DNA of 64,000 bases from Rhodocollybia butyracea (Eukaryota; Basidiomycota; Agaricomycetes; Agaricales; Omphalotaceae). Where the stretch lies: the NCBI GenBank assembly GCA_015501585.1, contig JADNRY010000215.1:1-64000 (forward strand), given 5' to 3'. The translations under genes were made by a program, and so were the position numbers. This document shows positions 1 through 44,608 of the stretch, piece by piece. The notes under the pieces are model-generated. The model did not search any database. It had not been told where the DNA came from and saw only the letters and a program-made list of their open reading frames with translations. Position 1 is the first letter of the stretch. Each line of letters starts with the position of its first letter.

Positions 1-679
1 CTTGTTGATATTCGTTTCGTTAAGCGACCCCAGGAACGTGAAGCGTTGAGATATTAACCGATCTTCTTCGTCGATTTCATATAGTACCGAAGAATATAAG
101 ACTTTAACAAAGCACTAGGTAGCTTCAACGGACAGAATCCGCAATCCAAATGAATCGATATAGCCTTGCAATTCTTACTGGTGCCTCCGAGCGCTGAAGC
201 GAACCCTTGGTACATTCCTGCGGTCACACCTCGTTAATAAACGATTCATCGGAGCCTCGTGTAATCAATATCGCCCAAATTTCCGCCCTTCGGCGTGATA
301 ATTGATTCATTGTTGAGGTTGTGCTCGTTTACTTCAACGAGACAAATTAGGGAAGCACTGGAGCATATGCAGAAGATGCGACGTGGTGGGGCGGTGGTAG
401 TACTTAAAGTCCAAGACTGATGATCTCACTAGGATTTCAAGTACCTTTTCATCTTGTTTTGGAAGATAATGATGATCGCGCATTCGAAGGCTTTCAATTT
501 GGCAAGAAATCAACTTCGTTATATGCATGATAAGCACTCTCACACACGGAGATCAAGATCGAGGAGTGTATCGGCGATTAGTACAAGGGCCGAGGAATCG
601 TGCTGGTCAATGTGGGAAACCTTGATAGGTGTCGAGATCAAGAACGACACGCCGCAGCCTGACAGCTTTTCCTTCCACC
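1..679. other. left edge, no supported gene
   Basis: Short ORFs occur on both strands, none with a recognisable domain or a convincing splice pattern. The stretch from about 450 to 680 may hold the promoter and 5' leader of the DUF6535-like gene that starts near 680. Confidence 0.4.
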
Positions 680-34261: not shown

Positions 34262-34284
34262 TTCATGTATGGCACATATAGTGT
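34262..34284 (+). repeat. left target duplication (TTCATG) and left TIR
   Basis: TTCATG at 34262-34267 followed by the 17-bp TIR at 34268-34284. Both have exact partners at the right end. Confidence 0.88.
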
Positions 34285-34440
34285 CAAATAATTAAGCATA
34301 AATTTATACCAGTGGGCAGTGCTTTTGCGGACCTAACTTCAATATTTTGAGCATTTCGGACACAAGTCAAGATACAGATTGTGGACCTAAGTAAGACAAA
34401 ATTTTGAGTAAAACTATGCTTTTGCGAATCCAACTTTTGT

Positions 34441-34652
34441 GTTTTGCGGACCTCATTTTTGCGGACCTCATTTTTGTGGACCTCACTTTTGCGGACCTCA
34501 TTCTTGCGGGCCTCAATTTTGCGGACCTCATTTTTGTGGACCTCATTCTTGCGGACCTCATTTTTGCGGACCTCACTTTTGCGGACCTCATTTTTGTGGA
34601 CCTCACTTTTGCGGACCTCACTTTCGCAGACTTTACTTTTACTGACCTTTTG
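34441..34652 (+). repeat. 15-bp subterminal minisatellite, left end
   Basis: About 14 tandem copies of a 15-bp unit, consensus TTTTTGCGGACCTCA, with variants TTTTTGTGGACCTCA and TTCTTGCGGACCTCA. Single scattered units (TTTTGCGGACCTAAC, GTGGACCTAAG) extend from 34323. Because 15 is a multiple of three, the array is open in several frames; one reads as FADLI/FVDLT pentapeptides. It sits just inside the left TIR and is mirrored at the right end. Confidence 0.85.
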
Positions 34653-34980
34653 GCCTGAGGTCCAGGATGCACCGTACGTTCTTCGGCTGACCGGCTGACC
34701 AACGCCGAATTAGCGCCGGTCACATGGTATCTTCATTGCCTCTCGGTTTCGTCTTCTCCTTCTTTGCCTTTTCTTCAGTATGCCAGAGACTGGTGTAGTG
34801 ACCGGCTTTGCTAAGAGATTATAAGAGGGGCCGGGTCACCTGGAATATCCAGTAAATTGTCTGCTGACGATCCGATTGAACATGGTAAGTGGCTCAGTCT
34901 GATGTTATCTGGTATTATAGTTTTGACGCGTTTTGTACATGTGTTGTTCCCGTTTTTTGATGTAGGAGTCTTTATTTTCC

Positions 34981-36833
34981 ATGAAGATGGGTGTGCCTTG
35001 GCTACTGGAGCAAGACCAACGGCTAGACTTCACCCATTGCCATACCATGACCACGACTTTCTACCACTTCCAGATGCTCAAAAGCAGAGTACTGCTAAGG
35101 ATGGGAGCTGTACATCATGTACTAGCCCAACTGCGCATCACTTTTTCTCTCAATTACCACTATCGCTTATGCTTGCATTTCAGGATCTCTTGATTGTCCC
35201 ACATGAAGCAGAAGCACAGAAGATCTTGGAAGTATGTGATGCTCTATCCTTCCTGTGCACTGTCTCACGCTCTTATCCCAGGACTACAAGTCTGCAGGTC
35301 TCAATGGAAAACGTGCTACCAAGATCATCAATGCCCTGAGTCCAACTGGGAGGATGCATTGTGCGTACAGAGGCAAGGAAATTATTGTTGGGATTGGCCA
35401 AGTATGTAATAATTCCGTGCAGATCATTCTCTCATTTAACATAATGCTTTTCGCCTAGTATCTTATTCGCATATGCTTTGGCACCGAGGCTCACTGTTTC
35501 TGGCTTCCTACTACTGCTCAATACCAAGCAATTCTTGAGACTAATCTGGTTCAGAGAGGCCAAAAGGGTTCCGCTAGACAGGTTCCAAAGGAGCTCATCT
35601 TCGGCCCTCTGGCTGATCCTTCCGCTCCACCTCTCCTTATCACTATTGCTGCGGCCTTTGTTCGTCCAGACCAGACTCTTTTGTTTGTGGACCACCAGAG
35701 GTTCATCACATTTCATGTAATGCGGTTACGTCGAGTGTGCAGTGCCGAAGATTTCCTTCTCAACTCGCCAGTCAGTCCTTGTTATATAAGCTACATATTT
35801 AACATTACCAATCCACCATGTTTTCTAGCTCTGGCTACGTTTCTGGAGCGCGAATCATGGCCTGTATACACTACTCAGCCGGAGCTGACACTTCAAGTCC
35901 TTCAGAATTTCCGTTCAGAAGTACAGGGGAAGCAATCGTTCGATGATACTCCGGTTTGGCAGGTTATGAAGGAGCATCAAGATGTTTGTAATGGTTTCGG
36001 AGCACAGGAGGCAACCGATGCTCTCTTTGGCGCATTTATTCATCCACAAATGCCCATCTCTCTTGTCTGCGGAGATGATGATATTTGGACTCGCTTTGTA
36101 CACACTGTTACTACTCACCATACAATGCGGGTAAATAGGGTCATGGATCCTAGTTCCATTTGTTCAAATTTGAAGCCCTTACCCTATGTTTCCGGTCTCA
36201 AGCTTTTCCGTATGAACACAACTGCTCACAAACTCTACTGTGCAGACATTCTATGTTACCGGAAGGAAGAGGTGTATCTTTCTCGGGAGCAGGTCATGAT
36301 TGCAAACAGTATGGGACTCTTCAACCCTGATGCGGTTCTTGATGATACTGGCATAGCTTCTGGTAAGCGTTGGCTTGGCTTATCTTAACTCGATGAGGTG
36401 CATCTTTTGTTTGCTTAGTTCCAGTTGGGCCGCTTCCTTTTCCTTCGCGAACTAGTCTATTCGACTGTCCTCCGACTGTCAGAAATGGAATGGACAGAGT
36501 GGTGGTACCAAATTATGTGCACAAATTTAACACAACTGATAATAAATCACTCTCAATGTACTCACCTTTCACTTGTCGCCTTCCATCCACTTGGAGGGAC
36601 AACGAGGTAGGTGATTTGTTCTGAGGCATTTCGACTGATCTCACGACTATGTCTGTTGAATTTAGGAGATATATACCGGTATCATTGACTTCATGGATTC
36701 CATAAATGACTCAACGCTTGGGCTATATAGCTTTAGGCTCTTCACTGATACAGCTTGGAGTCTGGAGCACATCTCCCCTATAGCAGAGCCTTTGGTGGGG
36801 CGGCGGCGCAGATCAAGGTCGGAAATGCTATAA
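34981..36833 (+). CDS. transposon-carried gene of unknown function
   Basis: Exons 34981-35088, 35184-35231, 35282-35401, 35459-36362, 36419-36606, 36666-36833, all in phase with consensus GT..AG sites. A tiny upstream exon ending at an ATG before the intron at about 34880 is possible. The protein (about 511 residues) includes LIRICFGTEAHCFWLPTTAQ, the proline-rich KELIFGPLADPSAPPLL, LVCGDDDIWTRFVHTVTTHH and ADILCYRKEEVYLSREQVM. I know no function; its place inside the element opposite the transposase suggests an accessory transposition role. After the stop at 36831-36833 another frame continues to 37057 with a basic end (RVTRSSSRKAKENKRRV), so the true C-terminus may lie there after a one-base shift. 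Confidence 0.65.
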
Positions 36834-37137
36834 TCAAGAGACCGCTGAAAGCATGTATACCTTCAGGTTCGTCGAGGACCCTTCAGAAAGGGTCACTAAA
36901 GCTGGTTAAGTTCCCTAGCCCTATTAAGCAGAGCAGTGTTGGCATCACAAATATTAACGATGAGCTGGGATCCCCTGTCGACTCCCTTGTGGGGCCCATT
37001 AGGAGAGTTACAAGGAGTTCTAGTCGCAAAGCAAAGGAGAATAAAAGGCGTGTTTAAATGCCGATTTTTACAAGACTTTAGCATTCTCTCAGGTTAGTAG
37101 ACCCTAGGACAAGTGGTGTTATGAACAAAGGTCTCAT

Positions 37138-37765
37138 GCACTTTTAGCGATGTGTGTAGTAAAAGTTGAATATTGCCAGTATCAAATTTGGACATTTTCT
37201 CTCGTCAGTAACCCCCATATAGTCACTTGGGCCAAATATTGAGCTCAAGTCTTGCGCCGTGCACTTTTAGCGGTGCGTATAGTAAGAGTCAAACACTGCC
37301 AGTATCAAATCTGAACATTTTCCCTTGTTGGTAACCCCCATAGGGTCACTTGGACCAAATCTTAAGCTCAAGTCTTGTGTGGTGCACTTTTAGCGGTGCG
37401 TATAGTAAGAGTCGAACACTGCCGGTATCGAATCTGAATATTTTCTCTCATCAGTAACCCCCATATAGTTACTTGGGCCAAATATTGAGCTCAAGTCTTG
37501 CGCCGTGCACTTTTAGCGGTGCGTATAGTAAGAGTCAAACACTGCCAGTATTGAAGTTGAATATTTTCTCTCGTCAGTAACCCCCCGTATAATCACTTAG
37601 GTCAAATATTGAACTCAAGTCTTGCACTGCGCACTTTTAGCGGTGCGTATAGTAAAAGTTAAACATTGCCAGTATTGAATCTGAACATTTTCCCTTGTTG
37701 GTAACCCTCATGCGATCACTTGGGCCAAATCTCAAGCTTAAGTTTTGATCTGCACACTTTTAGCA
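37138..37765. repeat. 123-bp tandem repeat, about five copies
   Basis: GCACTTTTAGCG begins successive units at 37138, 37261, 37384, 37507 and 37631, with a degenerate sixth near 37753; the period is 123-124 bp. Each unit also has CAGTAACCCCC or TGGTAACCC, CACTTGGRCCAAAT and GAGCTCAAGTCTTG. It fills the gap between the 3' ends of the two convergent transposon genes. Confidence 0.9.
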
Positions 37766-38082
37766 CAGCATTCTAGGGTAGGCTTACTTTTTCAATGCGG
37801 CAGATAACAGATTAAAACACCAGCGACAAATGTGCTTCTAGCTATTATTATTATGAGATACATAGTGGGAGCAGAGTAGCTAACATTTCAGTCACTATTA
37901 GTGTTTATCCACCGCTCAAGATAAGTCATCCCTTCACAATATACATCGATCCCCCAATTGTCATCGTCTCTTTCCCAATCAAAGCTTGTCCTAGAGAAGA
38001 AGTCTCTTCCTTCCTTTACTTCATCGTCGTCGTTAATAAAAATCCCATTCTGACGTTCCTCATCCTTTGAAGTATATGCTGT

Positions 38083-39630
38083 TTAATTGGGACCATCAGG
38101 ATCTAAGCGCAACTCGTCCAATGGCGGGATTTCTCCATCTTCCTCGCCGTAATGAGGGTCTAATGCTGTTGGTAAGTTGTCACCAGGATCACTGTTCCAA
38201 TAGCCTATAGTCTTAGCCTTTTCATGGCTAAGCTCGTAGATAGCAGCTGGCGACTTGTGTTGTTCTGTTCGTAGGCGGTGAACTTTCCAAGATGATACAG
38301 TGCGATCTAGAGAAGCCTGAATGCGAGGTTGGTAGACAATGTATAGGCAAATGCGGTGTATTTGATTGTCCATATCAAGCAAATGAAGTTCCTCCAGGTA
38401 CGAGAAGATTTTTCGAAAGATTTCTAGTGTATCCTTGCGTACATTGCGCCATGTACGTTCTATCCGAACATTATGTGTTGACCTATATCAAAAATAAAAA
38501 GGGTCAATAATGAATCGTCTAAGCTTTCAGACTTGCCTTCCCCTCAGATATGCTCGATGGTTGTCTCCCCAATGTGCAATCATCATTCGCTCAACCTCAT
38601 TGTTCTCTGTTCCCCAGTCAGCCCTGCACCGACTGGGCCATCCATACTGTCGAATAGCACCATGGTATGCGGCAGCTACTGTACTTTGTCTCTTGTTATT
38701 GCAGCAATACATATAAAGCATTAGTCGGGACTATCCATCGACGCAGCCATGAACATAGAATCCCCATGGTCGCAGTTTTTCATTACCATCCATATGCCAA
38801 AGTGAATTTGCACCTCTCACTTTATACACTCGATGTTTGATGCAGCTAGCCCATCTATCATGCCTCAGTAAAACGATGTAAAAACTCATAATTGTAAAAG
38901 CTCACCTTACAAAGACACCTATAGGATCAACTCTTCTCAAGCTGTCTTGTGCCCTCAGTGCTGGAACTTTGATACTTTGTGCCTCTAAGTGTCCTCTGAC
39001 AATAGACGATCCTGCAAAAGGATGATTCAAGCTTATGCCTGCTACCAGTTCGTCCAGATCATCATCACTAATAGATGTGTACTCTGGGCGCTCTGTCGTA
39101 AGACCGGCTTGTTGGAGATGATTGTACAGAGTTTGTCTTGTAACTCCAATGGCCGATGTGATTGAGCTCCAGCTACAGCCCAGATCATGCAATTCTATAG
39201 TGTGCTGCAGATTGAGGTTGTACCTAGGTCTCCCGGGCTTTCCAGTCTGAATGACAGTTGTTCCTGCGTTCCTGGGTGGCGGAGGTTGTTGTAGAAATTC
39301 GTGCAGAGGAAATGCAGTGTACATGATCAATTTACTGAGACCTTCGATCTCTGTCTGGGAGATATGGGGATCATCCAGATCGGAAAGGATATGATAGATG
39401 CTGTAAAGCTGTCGCAAGGATCGCTCGACTGAGAAATGCTCCACATTTGGAAGTGAGCCAACAACAAATTTTGCCTCGTTGACAACTTTGTCGGCATGTA
39501 GTAGAAGTCCATGGACTTTGTCTTCCTTATCTTCTCTATCTGAGAACAAGTGAATCAACGATATACACCGAAAAACAGAGAATTTGTAAAGCTAGGCAAG
39601 CATACCATGCTTAAGATGTGATGCAAACAT
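38083..39630 (-). pseudogene. integrase-core (DDE) transposase, one nonsense codon
   Basis: Four exons: 39630-39606, 39539-38906, 38854-38537, 38482-38083 (1377 nt with stop). N-terminal part: acidic leader, then a DNA-binding helix-turn-helix (GRPRYNL, then DLGCSWSSITSAIGVTRQTL). The core matches the fungal integrase-core family: first Asp in LWHMDGNEKLRPWGFYVHG, second Asp in GWPSRCRADWGTEN, Glu in STHNVRIERTW, with 34 residues between second Asp and Glu. The codon after CVDG is TAG (38731-38733), where the family has Tyr (VDGYSR); this is a nonsense mutation unless read through. The last intron (38483-38536) is GC-AG with a perfect AG/GCAAGT donor. It probably mobilised the surrounding element. 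Confidence 0.82.
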
Positions 39631-39874
39631 CGCGGTAGTGGTCAACCCACTCTAAGAGCATTTATTATCTCAAATCGGCACGCATAATATGAACATGTAT
39701 ATTAAGATTAACCAGTTATAAACAAATAGCCCTAAGGAGCGTGTGTGTGTAATAGTGATAATATCAGCGAAGAACAAAACAGAGATAATTCAAAGAATGA
39801 CTGCAGTCAGTGAAAAGAATGTGTAAGTGATAGAAGCATTAGTGATGTTTACGGCGCCTCTATTTGCCTACTCC

Positions 39875-41942
39875 CTATAGCGTCTCGTCACACCTTGCCT
39901 CCTGTCGGTCTTTGCAGTTGTTTAAAAATTTCATAATCTCTCCACTGCATTCCTTCCACTCCTGTGTAAGCATCGGAACCTTGTCTTCATGAAACAACTG
40001 AAGGACACATTCAGTAAGATACAAATGTGTTGGTTACAAACAACACTCACCAGAGCTAGTTTATTATACTGGGTTTTGAACGACTGGCCATCAAGGTGGA
40101 GCTCCGACCAGGGTTTGACCAATGGATGGGTCTTGAACAAAGTGAGGATGAGCTGGAAACATTGTGTGAATGCTTCGTCAGAGTTTTTTCCCTTCATGGA
40201 ATTCTCAATGTCTGTCAATGCTTGCTTCCACCAGGCTTCCATGGGTTGAGGCTGAGGCTGGGGATGAACTGGAGTAGGAGGGCGAGCATGTTCTAATGTC
40301 AATATCAGTACTGAGTTCAATATAAAATTGATCTGAGGTGCAATACCTTCATCTCCTTCGTCCTCTGAATCATGTACCGAGTGAACCTCAGGACTGTTGG
40401 TACGAGTATAATACTTTGGTTTTGGTTTGGCCTATAACCTGTTTCAGTAAAAAATTGACCAGGAACAAATATAGCTAACCTGTGCGAGCAGTACCTGGGC
40501 GCATGCCTCACTGAAGGTACTTAGCACATCAAAGATTTCAATGTAGTCTTGGCTAGGAGGAACAGACACATCACGGAGAAATACAAGAAGAACCTTCTGG
40601 ACTCCATTCAATCCAAACATCCCACGTCGGAGAGCGGCACATACATTTTGCCATGCAGCTAATGTGTGGTGCGTGCTGGGTGCGTGCAAATGTAGTGCAT
40701 GTTCACTGGGTCGTGTCGGTGTTATCTGAGAAGCTAAAGTACACAATATAGTACAATGAACATCCCTTGTTAATTACAAGGATAATACACTGATATATTT
40801 AAGGCACAACTTTCAAACTTGCTAGTTTTTGTACAATATTATTATAAACATAAAATAACCTATAGCTACTTAGCAAGGAATGGGCTAACATTGCTGAAGG
40901 GACGCATCTGACGCACCCCGCAGCACTTGTATACACCTGCCATGACCATGACCAGCACCGCACCCATCATGCTTTGCACGCACCTTGCATGCACCCCTGC
41001 AAAATGATGCGGGTTGCATGCCAGTGATGCGGTGGTGCGTGCAAGGGTGCGTGCAAGTGATGCGGTGGTGCATGCAAGGGTGCATGTAATGACAGTGGCA
41101 AATTTTCTCAACAACACTTGTACCTGTAACTTGACCCGAAAACCAATACAAGCTCATTATTACTGTACATATTACAAAGGTATTCATATTTCTTGCTGAG
41201 TTTGGAGTCAAAAATGACTCTTTAATGTACATTTGCACGCACTGTACAACACGCATCAAGTAATTGCGTGCACACACCACGCACCGGCTGCACGGCAAAA
41301 TCATGTAGCCCGTCGGAGACGGCCTAGTACAAAGGCTGAAACAGTATCTGCACTACCAAAGTCATCAATCAGACGATTTCTAATCCACTTTGCACTGCGC
41401 CCAAAGAGAGGGACAGAGATGAGTGTATATTCATCATCATGGCTTGCATACTGATAGCAGAGAGGTGTCAGCAATAAAAAACATGCTATACAAGGCTAGC
41501 GTATCGGAAGATTGTCCAAGATGTCCGATGTTTCCAAAGCTTTGAAAAGATGGCTGAAGCCAGGCGGAGAGTAAAGATGAGAAGGAACAATATCGATAAA
41601 ATGGTCAATGACTTGGAGTAGATTGATGCTGATGTCTTTGATAAATGTATAGACCCTTGTGTAAAGCAAAGAGTCCAGCGTTGTATCTCCTTGCTTGCCA
41701 ATCGCAGCGAACAAGGTGCAAAGTGTGTCGACGACAGCATGAATACTGGACAGTCCCAATACAAAGGCCAAGAGAAAGGCATCCTGCAAAATGGAGTTTG
41801 TCATAACACGGCTAGCCAGGTCAGATATAAACTTTAGAAGCTTGAAGAGATCTTCGTCATCTTCACATTCCTGTACGATACTCATTAGAGTGACAGTGGA
41901 TGAGCGTCCACTCTGAAGCTTGACAAGTTGAGCCTTAACTCA
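39875..41942 (-). CDS. transposon-carried unknown gene (exons only partly resolved)
   Basis: Minus-strand coding pieces that appear to form one gene: from an acceptor near 41943 (AQLVKLQSGRSSTVTLMSIV, then ECEDDEDLFKLLKFISDLA), a helical region to about 41505, YASHDDEYTLISVPLFGRSA (about 41450), then 40746-40480 (AAWQNVCAALRRGMFGLNGV), 40460-40350, 40290-40050 (WWKQALTDIENSMKGK) and a last piece ending at a stop at 39875-39877 (MLTQEWKECSGEIMKFLNNC). Some junctions need poor splice sites (near 41505), so a broken copy is possible. A short GC-rich direct repeat (TGATGCGGTGGTGC, copies about 33 bp apart) lies at about 41020-41085. Function unknown. Confidence 0.45.
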
Positions 41943-42225
41943 AAGCAAAACAGGCTGAAGCGGAATATAAGGGCCTGTTGGCATAAGCGAATACTATCAG
42001 AGGAAATGGTAAGTAGATATCATGAAATTAAACAAGAGAGGTGTATCCAAGACACGATCTCATGACAAGGACCTCCAAAGTGGAAAAGCTGCTGTTTGAC
42101 TTTCTGTATCTGACACCCATACATCAGCGGTGCTGTAACATCCTCACCTGTGATACATGCAATGAGAAAACAGCCAAGAAAAAGTTGAAGATAGGATGGA
42201 AATGTGTACCCCAGTCTTTTTCCTT

Positions 42226-43526
42226 TCAGTTCGAACTATCGGTTGCAGACTGTAGAAAACAATAGAGTCGAAAGACAGACAATATGCAACAACAACTTAC
42301 AGATGCAGCATACGACTTGGCTTTTGGACCTGTCTTTGAACGTGTTTTGGGCAGTTCATAATCTGAGGCGTCACTGTCGCCACCATTGTCGCCACCATTG
42401 TCGGAAACACTCAGGATATCTTTGTCTGGGTCATCGTCAATCGGAATAGTCGCAGTCCCTTTGGGGAATGCAAAGATGCATCGTGGGGACCAGACGCGTG
42501 ATTTCAAATTCGTTCCAGTTTCCCAAGTTCTACAAGCAAAGTTAGCTTTGTCATTGAAGCAAACATACAAACTGAAGCTTACCCGTGCAAATCCTGGTAG
42601 CTAGGCTTCCCAGGTCTTCCTGTGGGGGTAAGAAACACCGACTTTCCTGTCCCTTTTGATGTTTTGCAGAGCAGACGAAGGCCATGGAAAAATGGAGGCT
42701 TGGTCTTCAAAAGCTGCACCTTTACCAGCAAAGGCAGTGAATATTTTGTTGTAGATATCTTCAGCAGTGTCAGAAGCGGGTATCTCAATCAGTTGGAGAA
42801 GGTTGTTTGTCCAGTGCTTCAGAATTCTTATAAAGAATTTAGTATTCAATTGGAGACAAGAAACAAATGCTCACAATGCAGGAGTGGGGATGGAGCATTT
42901 TCCTGTATCTATCAAAGCAGTGTCATGGAATACAACAATATTGAGGGTCATTGCATCCTTGAACTTTTTCATCACAGGGCCTGTCTCCTTGTCGTCATCA
43001 TCTCCAGGGACAACCTCGGCGCTCTTTCGCTTCTTTCCTTTCTTCTTGAGTGCCTCTGGCTTGCCACCTTGAGCCTTCTTGAAGGCATCAACATTTCCCT
43101 ATGCAGAATGAATCAAAAAAAATTTGACTACAAAGCAGAAAAGCCAAAAGGACAAACCTTGACTCCAGGGTCAAACTTCTGCTGCTTTGTAAGGTCATCC
43201 ATAGTGTCTTGATTCCATTGACAAACTCTAGCACTAGCAGACGTTGCAAAGGAGAAAGTAGAAGGTTGGCCACTCGACTTTTCCTTCAGAAAAGATATCA
43301 AGCACTGAGCATTTAATTGATCAAAATGTTGTACTTCTGATGTAGTCTCGGAACTTCCAGCAGGTTTAATGTGGTACAAACCAGTGCACCCACAAAAGGA
43401 GCAAAGCGAGCGTATAACAGGCTCTTTATCCGAGTTTTCTAAAGCGTAGAATTGTAAACAGCCACCAAAATTAACAACTGGGCAGTCAGCGTTGGTGCAT
43501 GCACCAAGATTACTCTGTGCACTCAT
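42226..43526 (-). CDS. transposon-carried Cys-rich unknown protein (one frameshift)
   Basis: Start ATG 43526 (MSAQSNLGACTNADCPVVNF), exon 1 to 43158, then from 43098 a Lys-rich, acidic exon (KKKGKKRKSAEVV, then DDDDKE), an intron with GTGAGC..TATAAG near 42827-42875, NNLLQLIEIPASDTAEDIYN, FPWPSSALQNIK, TPTGRPGKPSYQDLHG, then an acidic tail (SVSDNGGDNGGDSDASDY, then KTRSKTGPKAKS) ending at 42226. The N-terminus has paired cysteines (C..DC..C..FY, CSFCGC) that could bind zinc. Near 42650, within AAAAGGGAC, the frame shifts by one base. Function unknown. Confidence 0.5.
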
Positions 43527-44284
43527 CACAAGAGGTGGGATAGAAAAATGTAAATGGAAAAGAGAAGGAACATCAAACAATGGAAAGATAAATCACTCGT
43601 ACCATAATTAGACTTTTGATTGGTGAGCAGAATTGGTCCTGATCATTATTAAGGCTGTGTATGCAGAGCGTAGTCTGCTCACCTTCAGATATGGCAAAAT
43701 ACGCCTGCTCTGCATATGCTATAATTAAAGAATAGATGCTAAAAGCATGCCAGATGTCCCCTTCATATATTACCAGAGCATGAAGTACTTAATTTGTCGG
43801 CTTGTACAGTTTAAACTTGGCATACTTAATCAGTCTTCTGAAGGCACATATGGCACTGCTAAAAGTGCGGTGGGTGTACGTTCATCTTCATACATTAGCC
43901 ATATACTTTTGAGGGGTTCAGCATTATAGCAAAATACTTACTTTTGCTATAAACAGTATATATCAGTGTCCCAGAGATTTGCTCACCTTTAAATGTAGCC
44001 TTGACACACTTGAGTAGCCCACTTGCATAGAAGAATACTCAGAATTTAGTTTTACTGGTCATCATCGAGGTTCTAGGAATTATGAATGAGCTTTCAATAT
44101 GATCAAACATAGTAGTAAGCGCCGACTCGGCCTTTAACGCTGGAGGCGCCTAATCAGCAATCTAATCAGCATTTGTCATCCATAGAACTTTAGACTTTGG
44201 ACTTAATCTGTGTCCAACTTGATAGAAAATAAGTATGTCGACTTCGCTAACTTGTTTCCAATTTGAGTCGATGAGACTTGAGTC
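43527..44284. other. right noncoding part of the transposon
   Basis: No gene supported between the Cys-rich gene and the right subterminal array. Confidence 0.4.
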
Positions 44285-44425
44285 CCTAAAACATGGTCCA
44301 CAAAACTTGTGTCCACAAAACCTGTGTCCACAAAATGCATGTCCGCAAAACGCATGTCCGCAAAACACATGTCCACAAAACTCATTTCTGCAAAACTTCT
44401 AAAAGTTGTGTCCACAAAACTTATG
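44285..44425 (-). repeat. 15-bp subterminal minisatellite, right end (inverted)
   Basis: About eight units of the reverse complement of the left array (GTCCACAAAACTTGT, GTCCGCAAAACGCAT and variants), more diverged than on the left. Isolated units (GGTCCGCAAAA) continue outward to about 44575. In minus orientation the order TIR, single units, array is the same as at the left end. Confidence 0.8.
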
Positions 44426-44585
44426 CCTGACTTGACCTTGATTCAACCAGACATTTTCTCAAGTTAGGTCCGCAAAACAGGTATCAAAAGCTAAAGTGTC
44501 CATAAATGATGATTTTACACTATTTTATGAAGTTGGGTCCGCAAAAGTGGTGCCGAAGGCTAAAGTGTCCGCAAATAATTATTTT

Positions 44586-44608
44586 ACACTATATGTGCCA
44601 TATTCATG
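44586..44608 (-). repeat. right TIR and right target duplication (TTCATG)
   Basis: ACACTATATGTGCCATA at 44586-44602 is the exact reverse complement of the left TIR, followed at 44603-44608 by TTCATG. Confidence 0.88.

Follow-up and report, generated by a model that had tools for sequence, protein, structure and literature searches.

The DNA analysed here is a window of 64,000 nucleotides (the whole stretch studied, to which positions given without a contig name refer) within contig C512 (104,640 bp) of the assembly of Rhodocollybia butyracea, an agaric of the Omphalotaceae (95.6 Mb in 1,381 contigs). It contains an element of 10,335 bp (34268-44602) that is, with high probability, a mushroom DNA transposon of the IS3EU superfamily carrying a Fpg/Nei-type DNA glycosylase as cargo. 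The original prediction described 17-bp exact inverted ends abutted on both sides by TTCATG, and this was borne out: nucleotides 34268-34284 are the reverse complement of 44586-44602 at 17 of 17 positions, and the hexamer stands at 34262-34267 and 44603-44608 as a target-site duplication (TSD). A repeat search places the left terminal inverted repeat (TIR) at 34268-34294 (+ strand) and its partner lies at 44576-44602 (- strand), the two agreeing at 96% over 27 nt and imperfectly (77%) over approximately 79 nt. A chance origin had been thought very unlikely; indeed, if all pairs of positions in 64 kb are considered, 17 + 6 matching bases have by rough estimate a probability of approximately 3e-5. 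Genome-wide, the terminal 17-mer has 17 perfect matches, including the two in the window. With up to two mismatches the number rises to 50 places against 26 for a reversed control pattern, and two-mismatch matches without a partner are therefore regarded as noise.

Inside the inverted repeats lie the structured subterminal arrays that the original prediction also recognized. The left array (34323-34633, + strand) consists of TTTTGCGGACC repeats with a period of mostly 15 bp, and the right array (44295-44546, - strand) carries the same motif inverted. When no more than one mismatch is allowed, the window contains 17 copies of the motif, each of which lies in one of the element ends and faces inwards, compared with a mean of 1.6 places in five base-shuffled windows; at two mismatches there are 38 places, ten of them outside the element. 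Between the arrays, the four predicted coding regions are present, though not all are intact.

The transposase gene (37857-39630, - strand, the low end being approximate) encodes a helix-turn-helix (HTH) region and an rva_4 integrase core, in keeping with the integrase-type DDE enzyme originally proposed. Its exons lie at approximately 39606-39630, at 38906-39539, at 38537-38863 and from 38482. In the spliced exons the catalytic residues D245, D302 and E337 form a DD34E triad that aligns with D238, D295 and E330 of homologue P0001, none of which varies across an alignment of 16 homologues. Pfam matches to HTH_7 and HTH_40 fell below cut-off, and no zinc domain was found in P0001 (Pfam, E up to 1). 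The named proteins among the 77 transposase homologues are from Agaricomycetes except for one from a beetle, and many of the homologues are metagenome proteins. The closest are from Marasmius (63-65%), and in a tree of the window transposase and 19 homologues the former clusters with three Marasmius rows at 100/99 support. Two in-frame stop codons interrupt the gene: a TAG (38731-38733) inside the integrase core and a TAA (38083-38085) near the C-terminus, beyond which the reading is still P0001-like. Because these are nonsense codons relative to the homologues, the product of the window copy, as its sequence is read here, is not the full-length transposase. Hence the element is complete, as had been claimed, with respect to its ends and not with respect to its transposase.

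These characters can be compared with those of described superfamilies. Published accounts of IS3EU give TA..TA termini and usually 6-bp TSDs (Kojima, PMC10045372); in the TET-bearing IS3EU elements of rusts the ends read TAYGG..CCRTA, the TIRs are longer than 30 bp and the TSDs are again of 6 bp (PMC12730594). The window element shares the terminal form (TATGG..CCATA), the duplication length, an inverted repeat that continues imperfectly beyond its closely matched 27 nt to a total of approximately 79 nt, and an integrase-like DDE transposase (rva_4, DD34E) without an HHCC zinc domain. An integrase-like core is common to several superfamilies (PMC10045372), which would allow assignment to Ginger1, Ginger2, KDZ or another superfamily. 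Such an assignment is highly improbable, since the duplication is 6 bp long and not 4 bp or 4-5 bp as in Ginger1 and Ginger2 or 8 bp as in KDZ (Zisupton), the ends are TATGG..CCATA and no zinc domain was reported by Pfam for P0001. GingerRoot also has 6-bp TSDs and mostly TA..TA termini, and is not separated from IS3EU in Kojima's tree; it differs in having been described from a clubmoss, with no comparable cargo in the available parts of its description (PMC10045372).

A second element of the same genome adds to the IS3EU affinity that had been raised as possible. Two copies of another rva_4 gene, on C557 and C436, share sequence that starts within four bases of TATGGGCATAATAGTG, and their outer flanks differ. 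The element on C436 (C436:56445-63772) is bounded by an exact 6-bp duplication, CAGAAA, and its ends are of the same kind as those of the window element. These ends came from the two-copy comparison and, for the second end, a pattern search; a generic TA-end search at the two loci (L040/L041) found none. Thus termini, TSD length, the DD34E rva_4 transposase and the similar ends of the C436 element all favor IS3EU, and as a transposon the element is probably a new member of that superfamily, made a variant by its predicted glycosylase cargo. Two further structures with TACGG ends, C1094:218978-226701 and C788:15156-24236, were rejected as insertions. These are TACGGCCATAATAGTG-ended, and their outer ~1.2 kb, including the flanks, are inverted copies with no 6-bp direct duplication; no transposase homology was found in them.

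The search for further copies with different 6-bp duplications, suggested at the outset, was productive. Counting only sites at which both ends were fetched, merging same-flank insertions on two contigs and leaving out single-ended and weak matches, we obtained 15 distinct sites, ten with exact 6-bp duplications and five with one mismatch. Family A, with the window's own subterminal sequence, occupies six sites (window/C608, C1, C309/C550, C472, C505/C968 and C1116), and family B, with a sister subterminal sequence, nine (C147 twice, C223/C254, C494, C509/C623, C583/C987, C627, C812 and C672). TATGG..CCATA ends characterize the window element and nearly all fetched family ends, the exceptions being TACGG and TATCG (both C147) and TATTG (C812). 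On C608 the left end of the window insertion is found with the same hexamer, and the contig stops inside the element.

Ten insertions were prepared for an empty-site search; it was run with the joined flanks of six, and uninterrupted counterparts were recovered for four (C627, C494, C1116 and C1, at 97, 99, 96 and 90% over 120-125 columns). These carry a single copy of the hexamer, which for C1 differs by one base, and they support the reading of the element as a DNA transposon. The counterparts of C1116 and C1 sit elsewhere on the same contigs as the insertions and are therefore paralogous; those of C627 and C494, on other contigs, may be alleles or paralogues. For C472 only a diverged match (83%) that crossed the junction in part was found, and it was excluded from the count. 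A region of C986 (11300-11800) lacks the C1 element and also part of its flanks (8 bp on the left, 66 bp on the right), joined with a 5-bp overlap; it could reflect imprecise excision or an unrelated deletion, and was dropped as a clean empty site because flanking bases are also gone.

The five family-A sites besides the window are internally deleted copies. In C1, C309, C550 and C1116 the ends of the window element are brought together at approximately positions 807 and 9565 of the element, separated by ~40 bp of other sequence; C472 has almost identical breakpoints, and C505/C968 is a more diverged copy. Derivatives not enlarged by later inserts measure ~1.3-1.7 kb, and C309, C550 and C1116 share 98-99% identity over the stretches that match best. 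What is observed, then, is insertion accompanied by 6-bp duplications, and deletion derivatives that have been mobilised. The derivatives retain inward-facing TTTTGCGGACC motifs at both ends, which suggests from sequence that these are candidate transposase-binding sites; no such motifs were found in the five family-B or C436 loci scanned. Large copies were rejected as autonomous siblings: by our reading of the frames, C672 (16.2 kb) contains a retrotransposon frame of Ty3 type and C147 one of Ty1 type, C1 contains other inserts, and no transposase homology was found in any of the three. Two results weigh against the main reading of the element. The joined-flank search revealed no empty site for the window insertion itself, and the window copy is the only one in family A to bear a transposase gene. 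Among the at least 98 exon-level rva_4 matches listed for the genome, none lies near another family A or B copy; on C494 the nearest is ~90 kb away.

The original prediction overlooked the nature of the first gene, whose product is, on the basis of modelled structures, probably a Fpg/Nei-type DNA glycosylase. Gene 1 (34780-37057, + strand) is a multi-exon gene located between the element ends, and its product is predicted to adopt the two-domain Fpg/Nei (MutM/NEIL1) fold. Most NEIL1 rows of the structural alignment pair model residues 2..493 with 2..290, some rows being off by one. An N-terminal MPE (34780-34788), shared with NEIL1, Fpg (MutM) and Nei, is followed by an RGKE motif (lysine codon 35375-35377) and an H2TH-like NGFGAQEATD (35990-36019). 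The GKE lysine aligns with K53, which does not vary among the bacterial proteins compared, and the H2TH-like Q-xxx-NG-x-G has the same spacing as the consensus LLDQxxxAGxGN.

Several results count against this identification. The profile-profile score (hhalign, 30.3) exceeded those of all 200 shuffles (maximum 25.2), but control profiles came close behind (27.8 for an unrelated transposase, 25.8 for the reversed profile), global mode gave no alignment (1.4), Foldseek TM-scores were moderate (~0.5 by target length), and sequence-profile searches of Pfam and PDB with E up to 10 returned no match between gene 1 and Fpg/Nei proteins. The lack of a sequence-level match and the weak profile score would be expected if the fold call were wrong and the protein an unrelated accessory factor; we regard this as very unlikely. 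Alternatively, the protein may retain the fold for DNA binding only, perhaps of the subterminal arrays or of modified DNA. Its identity to solved enzymes is only 13-18% in structural alignments, it has long extra segments and a disordered tail unlike those enzymes, and although beta strands are predicted in the finger region, no conserved or invariant finger arginine was identified there. The MPE terminus in 17 of 27 family models (the remaining ten start elsewhere) and the GKE lysine in all 27 argue against a binding-only protein, which we consider unlikely. A glycosylase remains the probable identity, and one that, unlike NEIL1, Fpg and Nei, is borne on a transposon.

The gene-1 family numbers 27 proteins. 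Two of these, P0082 (Marasmius crinis-equi) and P0084 (Paramarasmius palmivorus), are labelled in databases as fatty acid synthase alpha subunit Lsd1, a name that is apparently wrong; another member, P0087, has an unrelated tail match to ScsC_N. A gene-1 homologue and the closest transposase homologue, both of Marasmius crinis-equi, occur on contigs of identical length (14,902 bp), which we read as one contig; surroundings were compared for this homologue and for the window gene. In R. butyracea the 5' piece of gene 1 is present in the deletion derivatives C1, C309/C550 and C1116; no other copy, and no full copy, was found in the genome beyond the window. A separate, host Fpg-like gene is located on C517. 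Gene 1 may have frame breaks in C512: one near its start is absent from C608, and the homologues raise the suspicion of another near 35.8 kb; both may be assembly errors. Over the first 1.3 kb of the element and the flank, many single-base gaps distinguish C512 from C608, as do approximately two array units inside the element, with the nearest 180 bp of flank 99% alike and the wider flank 87-91%. Because of these single-base gaps, assembly error is inseparable from decay in gene 1.

The remaining coding regions are accessory reading frames (39931-40746, - strand) and gene 3 (41496-43526, - strand), which has a cysteine-rich N-terminus (C..C..CxxCGC). Gene 3 gives two weak matches to the C436 element (E 0.03 and 0.032), and the frame at 40444-40746 is weakly like an open reading frame of that element (E 0.003). 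All three matches precede the transposase and are ordered and oriented as in the window; should they be real, the common core would include gene 3 and the accessory frame, and gene 1 would be an extra. A database search with gene 3 matched only itself, with no confident homologue outside the C512 contig, and it was rejected as Fpg-like, having no Fpg-like or other convincing Pfam domain. No TET/JBP or alpha-kinase Pfam domain was detected in the ten window frames scanned, a set that took exons singly and included only some of them. Between gene 1 and the transposase, a spaced unit of 123-124 bp is repeated five times in tandem (37137-37832), the other copies being 62-89% identical to the reference copy. 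A stretch at ~40627-40707, unlike the rest of the searched region, has 41 further genome matches (78-97% identity) and is probably an unrelated short repeat.

In the mechanism that we envisage, an rva_4 transposase would recognise both the termini and the 15-bp arrays that face inwards, and would insert the element with a 6-bp stagger. The window copy would rely on a related transposase in trans, because it has no full-length transposase as read. The cargo glycosylase would strip modified bases, most likely oxidised 5-methylcytosine, from element DNA, and the element would therefore escape host methylation. Such de-silencing is the role that we foremost infer for gene 1. Published work provides a setting for it: in Agaricus bisporus CG methylation is nearly confined to transposons and Coprinopsis TET yields 5hmC, 5fC and 5caC (PMC12730594), and NEIL1 excises 5caC and stimulates TDG (PMC5566547). 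Set against it are the four TET/JBP matches in the R. butyracea genome, which all fall under the Pfam cut-off, and a partner TET is therefore not established.

Fpg/Nei enzymes combine glycosylase and lyase action on damaged DNA. This activity would also suit a glycosylase/AP lyase serving transposition or the repair of its gaps and excision scars instead of de-silencing. Insertion leaves single-strand gaps that are mended by cellular enzymes (PMC10045372). The C436 rva_4 element, however, has its own 6-bp duplication and no gene-1 match; since, additionally, no full gene-1 copy occurs outside the window, gene 1 appears dispensable for transposition as such. We hold a repair role to be doubtful.

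The element can be compared with other transposons of similar cargo. The TET-bearing IS3EU elements of rusts and Tuber (Kojima 2025, PMC12730594) likewise combine TAYGG..CCRTA ends, TIRs, 6-bp TSDs and an integrase-like DDE enzyme with extra genes, theirs including a DNA-base-modification enzyme, whereas the window element has a predicted Fpg/Nei glycosylase, 15-bp subterminal arrays and an agaric host. KDZ (Kyakuja) elements with TET/JBP in Agaricomycetes are likewise agaric DNA transposons bearing a cytosine-modification enzyme, but with a KDZ transposase, and Zisupton TSDs are 8 bp (PMC12730594). VANDAL elements encode anti-silencing factors, the role inferred here; their VANC proteins bind specific sequences, whereas a base-excision enzyme is predicted for the window element (PMC5735166, PMC10398659). 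No transposon-encoded Fpg/Nei enzyme was found among the matches listed from open-licence full text.

Transposons carrying TET/JBP have been proposed to reverse host cytosine methylation (PMC12730594). It is tempting to speculate, and we offer this only tentatively, that the NEIL-like enzyme of an agaric IS3EU element is an anti-silencing weapon that excises 5-methylcytosine or its TET-oxidised forms, completing the demethylation route begun by TET/JBP of other fungal transposons. To our knowledge, the step that finishes this route after transposon TET/JBP in fungi is open, and a transposon-borne NEIL/Fpg-like glycosylase is a concrete candidate for it. The element and its relatives also provide, from an agaric, clean examples of IS3EU-type ends with their duplications and uninterrupted counterparts, and its predicted glycosylase would represent a new class of cargo for DNA transposons and a probable identity for an unannotated family of mushroom proteins. 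If the proposal is true, a whole unannotated glycosylase family would be living on mobile DNA.

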